Program-made: the position numbers and the translations under genes | Shown here: piece by piece, positions 25,481 to 63,759 of the stretch | How the letters are laid out: each line of letters begins with the position of its first letter | Numbering within the stretch: position 1 is the first letter of the stretch | The notes under the pieces: model-generated | Seen by the model: only the letters and a program-made list of their open reading frames with translations | What the model was told of the DNA's origin: nothing | Databases searched by the model: none | Origin: Phorcus lineatus | Taxonomy: Eukaryota > Mollusca > Gastropoda > Trochida > Trochidae | Assembly (NCBI GenBank): GCA_921293015.1 | Contig: OV121090.1 | Coordinates: 37,793,082-37,857,081 of the forward strand | Length of the DNA stretch: 64,000 nt | Direction of reading: 5' to 3'

Positions 25481-25493
25481 CGTACTACATGTA

Positions 25494-25551
25494 GTGAGTG
25501 AGTAATTTATTGTTTAACGCCGCTTGAGCAATATTTCAGCCATTAGCGGCG
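25494..25551 (-). mobile_element. 58-bp tail-only retroposon with perfect TSD
   Basis: Insertion of 58 bp flanked by CGTACTACATGTA at 25481-25493 and 25552-25564, a perfect 13-bp target duplication. Read on the plus strand it starts GTGAGTGAGTAATTTATTGT, then TTAACGCCGCT, a loop ending in CAGCCATT, and AGCGGCG. CGCCGCT and AGCGGCG form a perfect 7-bp stem. Read on the minus strand the order is hairpin, GTTAAAC, CTCAC-type tail, exactly the 3' end of the SINE at 37.9 kb. There is no tRNA head or promoter. Confidence 0.9.
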
Positions 25552-28470
25552 CGTACTACATGTAAATACATACTATATTTATAGTGTTTACGGCTCTTAC
25601 TACTTGTACATGAAAAAACAGATGTGGGATTATGACTGGTCACACAATTAATGTAAAGTTATGGGACAAGTAGACCTAAAAATGAAAAGATTCCTAAGTT
25701 TGTGATCGATTTTAAACCTTAAAGGTCGAAAGTTGCTCATACAAAAATTCGAGCATCCCTTTTAAAATGAACTCGGCAGGCCTTGGAACTTGTTACTTTG
25801 ATCAACCCGTATAAATATATTTTATTTCATAAGACACTTGCATTGGGTGAAATCTTTAATGGACAATGTCACGTTTGGTATTGCAAAATTAAGGAATCCC
25901 TACTCTGAGATCTTCTACATAAAGTGTATCAGGGTAAATAAAAATGTTTGTTAAATGACAGAGAAACAAGAAAAATATCTCTTTTTGCATTTTATTTTTT
26001 AACATAGAATCTGCTTACATCAAAACATTTGGACCAGCGATGTTTAAGCTTCAATATGCCATATTCGTCATTACGATACTATTTTGGGATGTGACATCTT
26101 GAAAACTACTCAACGGATGGTTCCAACATTTGTCACTAGCTTCAGAAAAGATTGCCTTCCAGGTTCATAGATAATTTGGAAGTAGTGGATTGTTACATTA
26201 CGTTTATTCTACGAACATATTGGTTTATAGTATTGCCCAGCTACATCATATTGGTTTGTTTGAATCGAGAGTAATCACAACTGGATGGTTATCAACCGAA
26301 TGACACGTGTGATACTTCACTCGTTACATTGTCTAGTTCACCTTGAGAGATGTCCTTGGTGTTATAATGTTAAATACAAATGAGTGTAGGAGTAATTAGT
26401 TCTCTGTACAAAAAATAGCATTTATTTTTCAGATTCTTTTTATACCACATGCTATGCTTAACTCTACCAATATAATTCTTCTATAAATGATGCTACAATG
26501 TATGCCTACATTTGTGAACGTGTATATATTCTCCATAGTGCTTTCATCGGTGAACAAAGATAAAAGGTCTTGTTGAAAAGGAAAGAAGCAGACATACCTT
26601 CGATGTTGATTCCACACATACACATCGGTCATTTAGTCAGTTTCCGGAATGTATTTGTTGGGAGTGATAAATTTTTCCAACTAATGTACAAACATAACAA
26701 CAGGTTTTATTGGTTGATTTAAACAGAAACTTTATTATGTTCATCGCTATGACTATAATTTTCAATTTTAGTTTCATTTACAAAACACCTGTTTCATGGG
26801 TTTTTTTATATTTTTTTTTTATCTCAGTCAGTATGAAATGATATCGACTCACATATTGAGAATATTGGAACAACTGACCTAGAGAGACTGCTAAAGATAG
26901 AGCTACTCCATCAATGCGTTGTGTAAATTATTTTGAAATCGTATTCATTTCCTTGGTACCTGTTTTCAACTTGCCTTCTTAGTGGAAATAGCACTTTTTT
27001 CCACTTACTGTCCAATATGAAGTCGAGAGGTATACTGCATTAATAAACAGGTGTTCTAAAGTGTTTCTGTTACAGCGGTGATTCGAAAGAAATTCAAAGG
27101 ATATTGTAATAAGAGTAAGTACCAATTAAATACAGAAATGTTTTAGTTACTGACGAATAAATCATTACCTTCAGCTAAAAGAATAACACAGCTTTCTTCC
27201 TAGTTCAGCTTTGCAATTTCAAATTAAAAAATGACACATTGAAGGGCACTTTTCAGTAAGACACTAATAAGGCGCAAATAATGAGAGACCCTACGAAAAA
27301 AACAAAAACAAGAAAGGAGTTTACATCGTCACCTGATAGGTCTAATGGATTTTCTGCTGCTCTTACACACATAGCCTAAAGCTTCCTACATGATTTTTCT
27401 ATCAATTTATTCAGTCGTAATAGTGATTTTTAGAATAATTACCAACATTAAAGGTCATACAAATACCACAGGTAATTATTATTGTCTCACATGTTCATTC
27501 ACCTCAACTCATTATCAATTTACATATTCATATAATTTGTAATAACAGTGACGAGACTGATACTTAAGGTTGATCTACTACTGGAAGAGCTAAGCCAATT
27601 AGGGAAAATGAGAACTGATCTATTATTGCATATTATTGCGCTCTCTATCCCACAACTGGCTCGTCTTCTATTGGGACGTCTTTCCACTGGGGTGTAACCT
27701 ATACTAAACCCCTTATGAATAATAAACCAAATTAAACCAAGGAGATTATGTAAAAGTGTCGATTTCAATGTACCAGCGATGTTTTTCATTTTCATGGCGT
27801 TGCCACATTAGAGAAATATATTTACAATTATAGGTTTGGTGTGTGCAATTAAAGTGATTACCATTTGTGAAAACACTATTTCTAAAATTGAAGAAACTAA
27901 GATCAATTATTTCTATACAGGAAATTCTGAGGAAGGCTAATCTTAATATAATATGATCATTATAGGGTTGAAAACCTAATTACATGTGTAATATACACAT
28001 TTATTTAAAGTCAGTTTGATTATTTCAACGGTTAACATGGAGTTTTGAGACCCTAAGTTTAAGTTTCCCCAGCTCATGTCTTTTAATCATTACTGTGACT
28101 CATTCCTATTTCATCAAAATAAGTTTCAACAATTTTTAATGTAAAATGTTTCGGATGATGTACATGTTTCAAGTAAGAGTTAAATGAGAAAATAGAGGCA
28201 ATATAGTTGGTTGAAGGAATTTTTCGGCAGAAGCTGTACATTTTCTTTAGATTTTGTCTAATTTACATCAGAGAAATAAAACTATTAAATGACCATATAC
28301 ATAATCTTTCTCTGTCAAACAAGAAGGCAACAATAACACACAAAATTTCTTCTTCACAGTAACACACACCACATTTTATCAAGGGACAAGATACTATTTG
28401 CATACTTATATCAGTTGGTGAACCTTCACAAGGTCAAATTGTTTTCTCTTATGGCAAATGCTTTCCTTCA

Positions 28471-35589: not shown

Positions 35590-35870
35590 TTCTCTTGTAG
35601 TAGACGTCAAGAGCTATACCAGCTGGAGCTTACTTGCTCCTGATAGAGGCACCCAAGCTGGTCAGGTCGACGGTTAGAAATTGAGTCGTTATAAAACCTG
35701 CTGTCATTTATTCAGTATGCCTTTCTTTCCGTCTTTTCCCTCAACCTTTCGATCCCATTCTCTCTGATCTGTCCACTCTCTTTTGGATGCTTTTCATCCA
35801 CGTGCTTAATAACTATAACTATAATATTGGTTAAAAAAACACGTTAAACCCCAATGCAACTTACTCACTC
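35590..35870 (+). mobile_element. Retroposon 3' part with hairpin and ACTCACTC tail
   Basis: The 3' end has the arrangement seen in the SINE and the tail-only insertions: GTGCTT (35802), a loop with ATAATATTGGTTA, AAACAC (35837-35842), then GTTAAACC and a CTTACTCACTC tail ending near 35870. The 5' part (AGAGCTATACCAGCTGGAGC, TAGAGGCACCCAAGCTGGTC) is not tRNA-like and resembles no other copy here. It could be a LINE 3' untranslated region or a different SINE sharing the tail. Target duplication not found. Confidence 0.6.
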
Positions 35871-37865: not shown

Positions 37866-37877
37866 CCTTTGGTAGAT

Positions 37878-38192
37878 GGGGGCGGGATAGCGCAGTGGTT
37901 TGCGCGTTCGTCTTCGGATCAGGAGGTCCGTGGTTCGAATCCCGCCAGGGGCTCGGCAACTTTGTCTGCAGTAGAGAACTGTTCTACACGCAGTCAGGTT
38001 TGGGTGCAATGCTACACTGAAATCGGCGCAGTACCACCCATGGTTCGCTAGTTCCAGCCGATGCTCGCAGGTTTCACCGCAATGCATAGCCACAATGGTG
38101 TTGCGGGCTTTCTCCCTGCAATAATACTAGCAGCCGCGATATAAGTGAAATAATCTTGAAAGCGGCGTTAAACACCAACTCACCTCACCTCA
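37878..38192 (+). mobile_element. Full-length tRNA-derived SINE, 315 bp
   Basis: Complete copy with a perfect 12-bp target duplication CCTTTGGTAGAT (37866-37877, 38193-38204). The tRNA-like head has an A box TAGCGCAGTGG (37888-37898) and a B box GGTTCGAATCC (37932-37942) at normal pol III spacing. The body follows (AGAACTGTTCTACACGCAGT, ATGGTTCGCTAGTTCCAGCC, ATGCATAGCCACAATGGTGT). The 3' end has stem GCCGC/GCGGC around GATATAAGTGAAATAATC, then GTTAAAC and CAACTCACCTCACCTCACC. It encodes no protein and would be transcribed by pol III and mobilised in trans by a LINE sharing the tail. Intact boxes and TSD make it the youngest-looking SINE here. Confidence 0.95.
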
Positions 38193-38401
38193 CCTTTGGT
38201 AGATCATGCTTAAAGTGACGGAAAGTATGTTTTCATGATTTTCCCTGTGGCTTAAATACAATTCAAAATACCATAAGTTAGGTTCATATAGCCTCTCTTA
38301 ACTTTTCCTGAAAAATGCTTTTCTGAAAAATGCCAAAATAATGCTATTTGCTTGTCTTCAATAAAAAAACTGAAAAAAGCGATATCAATGTTAGATAAAC
38401 T

Positions 38402-61450: not shown

Positions 61451-61464
61451 TACAAATGAGTTGA

Positions 61465-61518
61465 GTGAGTGAGTTATTGTTTAACGCCGCTTGAGCAATA
61501 TTTCAGCCATTAGCGGCG
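61465..61518 (-). mobile_element. 54-bp tail-only retroposon with perfect TSD
   Basis: Flanked by TACAAATGAGTTGA at 61451-61464 and 61519-61532, a perfect 14-bp duplication. The insert is GTGAGTGAGTTATTGT, TTAACGCCGCT, the loop TGAGCAATATTTCAGCCATT, then AGCGGCG. Its hairpin and loop are identical to those of the 25.5-kb insertion, but the host site and TSD differ, so the two are independent insertions. Confidence 0.93.
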
Positions 61519-61532
61519 TACAAATGAGTTGA

Positions 61533-63008
61533 TGTATTCTATATTTAACTGTTACATTCCCGTGGTTTCATTGCTTGTTGTTTAATTGACTATCTTGTTT
61601 CAAACCTCTGGACAAAAGTCCATTAAATTGTGAAAGCCGACATATATTTTTTTAGATAATCCTTTTGGGAATATTATTAATAAAAGTCAAAGTTAGTATT
61701 ATTGAAGACCGTTTATTTATTTATCAGGTATAATTGATAAAGACATCTAGCTTACTCATACTTATTCTTTTGGCAGGTAAAGTTGTTGAAGCCGTACAAG
61801 GTGTAAACTAAACAACAAGTGATCAGTTAAAAGAGTACATAAACTAACACTGGCAGAAAAAAATAATTTTAAAACACAAGTCTTTGCTATAGATATCTAG
61901 AAATATTAAATAATCTGCAATATGGTAAATATTAATTTTTTGAAAATTTTAATTGCTATAACCATGTTTATTGAAATAAAAATCACTTATGCATTCTTTT
62001 CTGGTATACAATCTCATGATCTCTTTTTCATAATATTCAAGATTCCAACCCAAAACAAGATTCCACAAAATGAGGTATGTTGCCATCCTGCAATCGTATC
62101 TATGAAAATAGTTGATAGACTTGCGACTTGAAATGAATGTTTGTAAGATAACTTTGAATGAAAGTGTGGTGATTATGTTTAGAGGATCATCTCGGAATCA
62201 GTTAGGTTTTTCATAGGTTTATGGTATCACCTACTAGACAGAAGGAACTCTCTGCTCAACTATAGTTTAGTCTTCTAAGTTTAGACATAAATACAATGAG
62301 AGTCATTTCTGCATATATCCAGCTTGAAACACATAGGTCAAGATATTTTTCTAGGGAGTATAAACATATTACGAGCAATGGTACGTGTTTCATTTTCAGT
62401 AGCAAGAACTACAAGAAATACCTGTAATTTTCCTATGTGGGCTTCACTGTCCCAGATAGACAGTTTATGCTCTTCAATAGTTAACAACCAACGTCAAAAC
62501 CTAAGCAATCATAACCGTGAGCTTATAAGTAAGTAACACTATAATATACAACACTGTTGGGTACTCGTTGATATCTCGTTCACCTACTTCTACGCTAGGA
62601 ATCCTCTCAACTTCACCGCTGATGACTATATTAGTTGCTTTCTCCAGACTATATTAGTAGGCTTCTCGGGGCCATGAAGTAGAGAGGAAGTATTAATGAA
62701 AACAAAGCTTGTTATATGTGCACCCAAGGCAAGACGTTCAGGCTGTGACGATACAGTATGTGCATACCCTCGTAGATAAGTGGTCACCTTCTATGTTTGG
62801 AATCATTGTCTCCATTGATAGGATTGTGCACCTTCCAAGTGTCATTCTCTCAAATAATGTTTTCTTGACCTTTTCTTGCCTCGATTTTCTTCATAGTGAT
62901 GGCATGTAAGATTCTTACACCCCTTGGGAAGTTATTTCCTTTGTTTTATTTGAAGGTTATATGCCATAACCACCATGTGCGCAGGTTGGTTATCTCATAA
63001 TTACCATG
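61533..63008. other. Non-coding DNA, no feature seen
   Basis: Short open frames (up to 70 codons) with no recognisable domain. Confidence 0.4.
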
Positions 63009-63020
63009 GTCGGTTATGAG

Positions 63021-63082
63021 TGAGTACATGAGTTGAGGTTTAACGTGTTTTTTTCTAACAACATTTCAGATATTAAACACCT
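63021..63082 (-). mobile_element. 62-bp tail-only retroposon, variant stem
   Basis: Flanked by GTCGGTTATGAG at 63009-63020 and 63083-63094, a perfect 12-bp duplication. Same layout as the 25.5 and 61.5 kb insertions (TGAGT-type end, GGTTTAAC, stem, loop with AACATTTCAGATATT, stem), but the stem is GTGTTT/AAACAC where the others have GCCGCT/AGCGGC. The tail side resembles the 35.6-35.87 kb element. Confidence 0.85.
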
Positions 63083-63170
63083 GTCGGTTATGAGATGTTC
63101 AATGTGAACAAACAAATTGACTTGTAAAATTTTGAAATTTCATCAAGCTAGAGATTTAACATTTAGAAAG

Positions 63171-63226
63171 GGCGTAACAGACCTCTGTATTGTCAAGCAA
63201 CACCTCTACCTCTTGAGCTAACGAGG
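63171..63226 (-). pseudogene. tRNA-like relic
   Basis: On the minus strand: GTTAGCTCAAGAGGTAGAGG has a good A box (TAGCTCAAGAGG). GACAATACAGAGGTCTG follows, where an anticodon arm and variable region would be expected. The B box that should follow is degraded. It could be an old tRNA pseudogene or the head of a SINE. No cloverleaf closes fully. Confidence 0.4.
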
Positions 63227-63507
63227 ATCCATGTCAGCTGAGGTACTTTTTGTTGTGTCATGTGTACACTGATTTCCCCCTGTATATATATAATAATAGG
63301 TAATAGGTTTTGTATATTTTTAATGTAAATGGGCTAGTTTTTAGCTTTAGAATCTAAAGCAGGCGTGTATTGTTAATATTCTATGTGACTCGTTCGGTCA
63401 GAAAACATAAAGCCGCAAAGTGTTAAAATATAACGTTAATAAATGCAATATATATGAATAATTTAGTTTAAAGTTATTTTACGAATGTTCCGCGGGAGTG
63501 TAAGCCA

Positions 63508-63606
63508 AATAATGACCTGATTGCCTCGCATTATGGCAATAAACTCGGCTCGGGCTACGCCCTCGCGAGTTTATTTGCCATAACCGCTCGGCACCAGGTC
63601 ATTATT
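63508..63606. mobile_element. 99-bp palindromic element
   Basis: AATAATGACCTG at 63508 is complemented by CAGGTCATTATT at 63595-63606; between them TTATGGCAATAAACTCG pairs with CGAGTTTATTTGCCATAA. The centre is GC-rich (GGCTCGGGCTACGCCCTC). The outer intervals (ATTGCCTCGCA against CCGCTCGGCAC) pair less well. The whole can fold as a single hairpin. It looks like a very small MITE; no target duplication was fixed. Confidence 0.75.
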
Positions 63607-63759
63607 TACTACTTACCCAATTTTACCTGCACAATTGACGCATATATAGGACTGTTTCTGACTTACACTCTAGGCCTCTCTTCTGTAAATTTAGTAAGAT
63701 TGATTTACGTTACTCAAGAATAAGTTTTACATTGAAATGAATAAAATTATCAACAGATC

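Follow-up and report, generated by a model that had tools for sequence, protein, structure and literature searches.

A tail-only insertion in the Phorcus lineatus genome and a probable class of hairpin-only LINE/SINE insertions

The insertion at positions 63009-63094 of the 64-kb stretch of Phorcus lineatus DNA analyzed here (the window) probably represents the hairpin module at the 3' terminus of a stringent-type LINE/SINE system, put in place by target-primed reverse transcription (TPRT), and a class of insertions made of the hairpin only probably exists. The copy in the window is an old hairpin-only event of the second of the tail families described below, later multiplied inside another repeat. 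Judging from pattern counts, the LINE that carries the first tail family apparently makes about ten insertions of its ~55-base hairpin for each insertion of a longer part. The genome searched was 958 Mb; the sequence read was the window plus about 250 kb, and the genome-wide figures are pattern counts. The coordinates of the features are collected in Table 1.

Table 1. Positions in the window of the 63-kb insertion, its parts, its host repeat and the related insertions
Feature	Position	Strand	Basis or remark
Target-site duplication, copy 1	63009..63020	-	GTCGGTTATGAG on +; single copy in L029/L030
Retroposed 3' tail, tail-only insertion	63021..63082	-	AG, hairpin, GTTAAAC, degenerate CTCA-type end
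Outer stem 5' arm GTGTTT	63075..63080	-	Sequence, 41-tail alignment
Inner stem 5' arm TATC	63069..63072	-	One U-U mismatch with GTTA; family form AAC/GTT
Apical loop, 9 nt, TGAAATGTT	63060..63068	-	Family form TGAAATATT
Inner stem 3' arm GTTA	63056..63059	-	Sequence, family alignment
Outer stem 3' arm AAACAC	63045..63050	-	Sequence, 41-tail alignment
GTTAAAC core, conserved, 3' of hairpin	63038..63044	-	Tail comparison
Target-site duplication, copy 2	63083..63094	-	GTCGGTTATGAG on +
Dispersed host repeat, ~0.7 kb	about 62914..63615	.	Left end varies by ~15 nt among copies
Tail-only insertion, LINE-type tail	25494..25551	-	Target-site duplication 25481-25493 / 25552-25564 (CGTACTACATGTA)
Tail-only insertion, LINE-type tail	61465..61518	-	Target-site duplication 61451-61464 / 61519-61532 (TACAAATGAGTTGA)
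SINE, ~270 bp, CGTGTTT/AAACACG-type tail	35602..35870	+	Family of the 63-kb insert; diverged copy
SINE, tRNA-like head, GCCGC/GCGGC + AAG/CTT tail	37878..38192	+	Target-site duplication 37866-37877 / 38193-38204; weak tRNA match, 17.5 bits

The original prediction described a perfect 12-bp duplication around 62 bp, and this is what we found: the two exact copies of GTCGGTTATGAG (63009-63020 and 63083-63094) start 74 nt apart and leave 62 bp between them. They are the only two exact matches to this sequence in the 64-kb window, both flanking the insert; with up to two mismatches there are five window matches, which is not above chance (18 of 100 shuffles reach five). An empty site, with a single GTCGGTTATGAG and continuous flanks, is present in two related repeats, L030 and L029, the sole two matches to a joined-flank query at up to three mismatches. 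The L030 paralogue matches at 96% over 82 bp of the left flank and 82% over 223 bp of the right, and the more diverged L029 at 76% over 106 bp and 69% over 460 bp, respectively. Thus, the empty sites identify a true insertion with a target-site duplication. The label "tail-only insertion" was also right. The insert is 62 bp of 3' tail and lacks the Pol III RNA-derived head with internal promoter of a SINE. The RNA-like strand is the minus strand, which corrects the earlier account. Read on that strand, the insert consists of AG, GTGTTT, AATATC, TGAAATGTT, GTTA, a G with an A-run, AAACAC, GTTAAAC and a degenerate CTCA-type end. The proposed stem arms are indeed complementary (GTGTTT at minus-strand 63080-63075, AAACAC at 63050-63045), and the loop core lies at 63060-63074.

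All 40 scored genome matches to window positions 62980-63120 (501 candidates) span the insert at 96-100% identity. Eight copies of the host repeat were read, including the window's own; all eight have the insert and its duplication and have ~700 bp in common, and the other seven are 94-97% identical to the window copy. Thus, there was one old insertion, passively multiplied in the repeat. The simplest reading of these alignments is that the tail was inserted once, in an ancestor of the ~0.7-kb repeat, and then multiplied with it; on this comparison the 63-kb insert is not a separate recent event and is carried by the amplified repeat. Near the right end of the host repeat we also observed a near-palindrome of ~100 bp (window 63507-63607) with perfect 13-nt arms (AAATAATGACCTG/CAGGTCATTATTT), which may be a nested small element or part of the repeat terminus.

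The original prediction regarded the 63-kb insert as the third insertion of the same element with a drifted stem. This was not supported: the stem is that of a second tail family, found on a ~270-bp SINE. The insertions at 25 and 61 kb carry the tail CGCCGCTAATGGCTGAAATATTGCTCAAGCGGCGTTAAAC, and the family of the 35-kb SINE carries, for example in L081, the tail CACGTGTTTAATAACTGAAATATTGTTCAAAACACGTTAAAC. By tail comparison, the 63-kb insert is a member of the latter family and not of the LINE/25-kb/61-kb type. Its layout is the tail layout of both the ~270-bp repeat and the 38-kb SINE. The extent of the ~270-bp repeat is given by its matches outside the window, of which 39 of 42 scored cover most of the interval, none of them extending upstream. 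A pattern for the loop and core of this family has 1539 exact matches in the genome. Twenty copies, hand-picked for varied 3' arms among the 100 matches listed and with loop and core fixed by the pattern, were fetched; 19 have the SINE body upstream, and half have A at a 3'-arm position where most listed rows have G.

A third tail type belongs to the 38-kb SINE, whose duplication is ATCTACCAAAGG; it has an outer GCCGC/GCGGC helix, an inner AAG/CTT-type helix and the loop TGAAATAAT. In the 264-kb sample, 10 of 12 copies of this family have tail and body in line, one is inverted and one is joined to another stretch. The 3' end is common to an autonomous LINE (L052, below) and to the SINEs ending at 38192 and 35870, with the same layout, a similar loop and GTTAAAC but different stems. 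It finishes in a short tandem repeat and not in poly(A): (ACTC)n at L052 and in 34 listed stand-alone copies, degenerate in the 63-kb copy. A tail scan over the 264 kb gave 12 sites and no clear new tail family. In one copy of the 38-kb SINE family (L028:1859-2249), tail and body are adjacent in opposite orientations, as expected from 5' inversion or twin priming. At L023:5704-5779, the stretch directly before a SINE tail is a different one (GGAATAGTTCAGTGGTTAGCGTGT) with a tRNA-like look on visual inspection, and the two may form a head-tail chimera. Two suggested SINE heads were set aside. For the 35-kb SINE, a head derived from 5S rRNA had been suspected on visual inspection but gained no support, and a tRNA-derived head of the 38-kb SINE scored 17.5 bits (E 0.15), below the gathering threshold of 29, with no match in other tRNA searches.

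We then compared the tails of the two main families. Aligned over 42 nt, the tails of the LINE (L052) and the SINE (L081) need no gaps and differ at 12 positions, and all 12 differences fall in six base pairs changed on both sides (four of seven in the outer stem, two of three in the inner stem). Thus 6 of the 10 pairs are altered and all 22 unpaired positions are the same in both tails, with the loop and the CGTTAAAC core fixed by the search pattern and 24 positions left free. Twelve differences placed over those 24 positions would make up six complete pairs with a probability of about 2.6e-6, or 3.6e-9 with complementarity. The G-for-A form of the 3' arm, seen in most listed rows, likewise differs from the LINE tail at 12 positions in six pairs, one of them U-G. 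The resulting architecture is an outer stem, a 3-bp inner stem, the 9-nt loop TGAAATATT and then GTTAAAC, followed by (ACTC)n in the LINE family.

To allow for phylogenetic background, we used this two-tail comparison and, on an alignment of 41 distinct tails (40 tails of exactly 42 nt plus the 63-kb insert), slid controls and shuffles. The proposed pairs are complementary in 94.9% of cells, compared with 33-58% in six slid controls and 78.4% in shuffles, and the covariation score is 0.547, compared with at most 0.199 in the slid controls; no shuffle among 500 attains either value. Of five measures, two fail to exceed the shuffles: the number of pairs with changes in both partners is reached by 384 of 500, and that of further pair types by 500 of 500. 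A 30-row alignment gave 94.3% paired and a covariation of 0.575, and RNAalifold on this 30-row subset returned nearly the same fold. The covariation signal comes mainly from the two tail types, and individual copies are not independent events. A functional hairpin kept by selection is supported, from these alignments, at the level of the tail family.

The predicted RNA hairpin with a paired stem change and a kept loop thus stood for the family and not for the 63-kb copy, which folds otherwise: its own lowest-energy fold differs from the proposed hairpin (z of -0.43 on the minus strand and +0.99 on the plus strand). This copy has an AU-rich stem, four extra bases relative to its own tail family and several substitutions; for a fossil of this kind, with its AU stem and added bases, a different best fold might be expected. 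That its GTGTTT/AAACAC complementarity is due to chance or AT-richness would agree with a copy that alone folds no better than shuffles. However, we give this explanation very little credence, because homologues exist (the 1539 matches to the family loop and core) and the U-A pair of columns 6-39 is kept in 15 of 15 second-family rows, the 63-kb insert included.

The LINE behind the first tail was reached from hairpins nearly identical to the 61-kb copy. Of 20 such hairpins fetched, three (L032, L043 and L047) have a common upstream sequence, and this led to the C-terminus of a LINE. At L052 we found an intact 1234-aa ORF with Pfam domains in the order endonuclease (PF03372/PF14529), reverse transcriptase RVT_1 (PF00078) and RNase_H (PF00075); the hairpin and (ACTC)n are reached 120 nt after the stop codon. 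One ORF2 with AP endonuclease, reverse transcriptase and RNase H is the mark of the I superfamily, and L052 has it. From its C-terminal motif, this LINE may be Nimb-like. Open frames of at least 1150 codons are present at 14 of the best 150 of 589 C-terminus matches (L052 being the one read), which suggests recent activity of the family. Eight lower-identity LINE ends (L073-L080) belong to the same family, and six have the same hairpin; L078 has no hairpin in the stretch read, and at L080 the hairpin is absent and the ACTC end present. As separate observations, 38 of the best 150 of 589 LINE ORF ends (hand count) are on contig C25, 34 of them within about 0.7-8.7 Mb, an 8-Mb stretch that is under 1% of the genome and possibly a repeat-rich or low-recombination region. 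A tandem array of about nine 30-bp units (L051:432-705) lies ~2 kb upstream of a truncated LINE copy.

To count copies, we placed four 38-letter probes along the LINE 3' end and searched genome-wide at up to two mismatches, so that the result applies to young copies. The probe 45-82 nt upstream of the stem has 232 matches and the probe reaching from 20 nt upstream into the stem and loop has 224; the hairpin probe has 2489 and the probe for the 3' half plus tail 2694. Reversed-pattern controls gave 0 matches for each of the four probes. The counts are therefore nearly flat on either side of a single eleven-fold jump at the 5' foot of the stem, and about nine-tenths of about 2,500 hairpin copies (up to two mismatches) have no adjoining LINE sequence.

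These copies were examined in a sample drawn without regard to 5' sequence: the first 20 exact matches listed for the 3'-half probe, all on contig C1. Eighteen are stand-alone hairpins, and two (L059 and L061) run on into the LINE. The best duplication is 8-18 nt long in all 18 stand-alone copies, being weak in three (L058, low complexity; L065, 8 nt; L067, 9 nt). They start within 2 nt of the stem-foot base, 9 of the 18 exactly there. Bases matching neither the LINE nor the duplication occur at 10 of the 18 junctions, with a point mutation equally likely in L066 and L067. The earlier set of near-identical hairpins, 20 of the 40 scored rows, chosen by identity to the 61-kb copy and biased at the base before the stem, gave 17 stand-alone copies, among them L036 with a 12-nt duplication. 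The duplications and intact 3' ends of truncated LINE copies are thus present in 18 of 18 stand-alone copies (three weak), whereas scattered truncation points are not found, with 232 and 224 matches upstream and 2489 and 2694 from the stem foot on.

Two point variants of the hairpin were followed by eye among the matches listed, so the counts of links are lower bounds. The G variant has 88 exact matches, at least 8 of them LINE-linked: six have a LINE ORF match exactly 124 nt upstream, a seventh (C25:744942) follows a shorter match with similar spacing, and an eighth (C25:7835194) comes 45 nt after the upstream probe. The T variant has 90 exact matches, at least 9 LINE-linked (8 among the matches listed plus L032). 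Both ratios are close to the overall 224/2489, so the stand-alone copies follow the LINE variants. Production from LINE RNA would fit these stand-alone copies better than one separate master.

Two other identities were rejected. Against a DNA transposon with terminal inverted repeats stand the variable 8-18-nt duplications, the match to the LINE and the directional ACTC end. For a cellular noncoding RNA gene there was no support: in the window, Rfam gave no match above its gathering thresholds and ARAGORN found no tRNA.

How would such copies arise? ZfL2 LINEs require a specific loop and a stem that pairs but can largely be swapped (Hayashi et al. 2014, PMC4176376); as passages of that paper describe, the cognate loop is required and an exchanged stem is tolerated if paired, at about half the rate in one case. 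This is the pattern seen between the two tails here, and by analogy we infer the same kind of recognition, of loop plus paired stem, by the LINE protein. What the protein recognizes would be the shape of loop and stem, as in the zebrafish L2 LINEs, and priming would take place on the ACTC repeats. The LINE RNA may be trimmed or cleaved up to the protein-bound hairpin, leaving 5' ends spread over a few bases, and the most productive templates would be RNAs already ending at the stem foot. Reverse transcriptase would then run off there, often adding a few untemplated bases, and the product would be a ~55-bp hairpin-only copy. With reverse transcriptase arriving from the 3' side, a simple block would leave the hairpin out of the copy, yet the whole hairpin is copied; run-off on an RNA starting at the stem foot accounts for both the stop position and the extra bases. 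Extra bases at template run-off are discussed for R2 (PMC2718515). However, the same source mentions untemplated bases at ordinary truncated junctions of R1 and R2, and thus they are not decisive for run-off. We propose the trimming step tentatively, from the positions of these ends. It is conceivable, though short of probable, that the recognition hairpin is the LINE's main insertion product, with trimmed RNA as the usual TPRT template and thousands of ~55-bp inserts, about ten per longer LINE insertion. If so, the inserts would make up a retroposon class of their own, coupled to RNA decay (hairpin-only retroposons). For the second tail family, which mostly has the SINE body (19/20), we found no RNA source of its stand-alone copies.

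The main rival to trimming starts from a full-length LINE RNA. Once the second arm has been copied and RNase H has removed the RNA, the cDNA would snap into its own hairpin, and this would end synthesis at the stem foot much as an intrinsic terminator does. The stop does fall there, after both arms; the LINE has an RNase H domain; in silico, the cDNA strand forms the hairpin at -11.9 kcal/mol (z -3.78); and two SINE families with weaker hairpins usually keep their body (19/20; 10/12 in line). However, extra bases are present at 8 to 10 of 18 junctions and agree, if not uniquely, with the run-off at template ends that PMC2718515 discusses for R2, and the 224-232 copies that pass the stem foot drop no further between 20 and 82 nt upstream. 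We judge this snap-back unlikely as the explanation.

It is more doubtful still that the stand-alone hairpin is a replicating family of its own, in which the LINE protein mobilizes a ~55-nt RNA whose source is a single master locus, or a few of them, transcribed from a promoter outside the unit. Such a source would give the uniform ends and the many near-identical copies observed. However, both variants are found at LINE ends as well as stand-alone, in a similar ratio (at least 8/88 and at least 9/90 LINE-linked), as expected if LINE RNAs seed the copies; the hairpin also has little room for an internal promoter, and no RNA gene was reported in the window. Ordinary 5' truncation, with very short LINE copies simply being common, would explain the target-site duplications and intact 3' ends, which are those of truncated LINE copies. 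We consider it highly improbable, since truncation points are described, in passages of PMC3747384, as scattered (100-1,000 bp), and here there is one eleven-fold jump.

With loop and unpaired bases the same and the stem replaced yet still paired, these tails are an unusually clean natural experiment on LINE protein-RNA recognition. The three options for what sets the 5' end of a LINE insertion are enzyme failure, RNA decay and early second-strand synthesis, as set out in part of PMC2718515. A sharp stop at the stem foot makes that question directly testable in one family with many near-identical copies. Some 2,300 young ~55-bp hairpins are scattered through the genome, and standard LINE/SINE annotation is expected to miss many of them.

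Several known systems are similar. UnaL2 and ZfL2-1/ZfL2-2 of the L2 clade, as described in sections of PMC4176376, share a specific loop, an exchangeable paired stem and a tail common to LINE and SINE, and UnaL2 also ends in short terminal repeats instead of poly(A) (passages of PMC3747384). The LINE here differs from UnaL2 and ZfL2 in having RNase H, a two-helix hairpin, GTTAAAC and (ACTC)n, and in that most young insertions are the hairpin only. Plant L1/SINE 3' hairpins likewise combine a variable, compensatory stem with a conserved loop and 3' flank (PMC3747384, in part); however, they have another sequence, belong to another clade and are found in plants. Among the molluscs surveyed in PMC10294476, as far as excerpts of it report, Nimb and Ingi are the only I-superfamily clades identified, and the words hairpin and stem-loop are absent from its main text. 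The endonuclease-RT-RNase H order of those LINEs is also that of the LINE here. Literature text searches for the tail sequences and for very short tail copies found nothing, and the literature searched, part of it in extract, gave no report of a dominant hairpin-only insertion class; novelty is claimed within that scope. According to passages of PMC3747384, the majority of LINE copies are truncated, at various positions, and are 100-1,000 bp long; 5'-truncated copies in general share the target-site duplication and intact 3' end, whereas here there is one sharp point instead of scattered ones. Conserved-loop, compensatory-stem 3' hairpins of LINEs and SINEs are already known from the cited parts of PMC4176376 and PMC3747384, and it is the dominance and sharpness of the hairpin-only insertions that look new.
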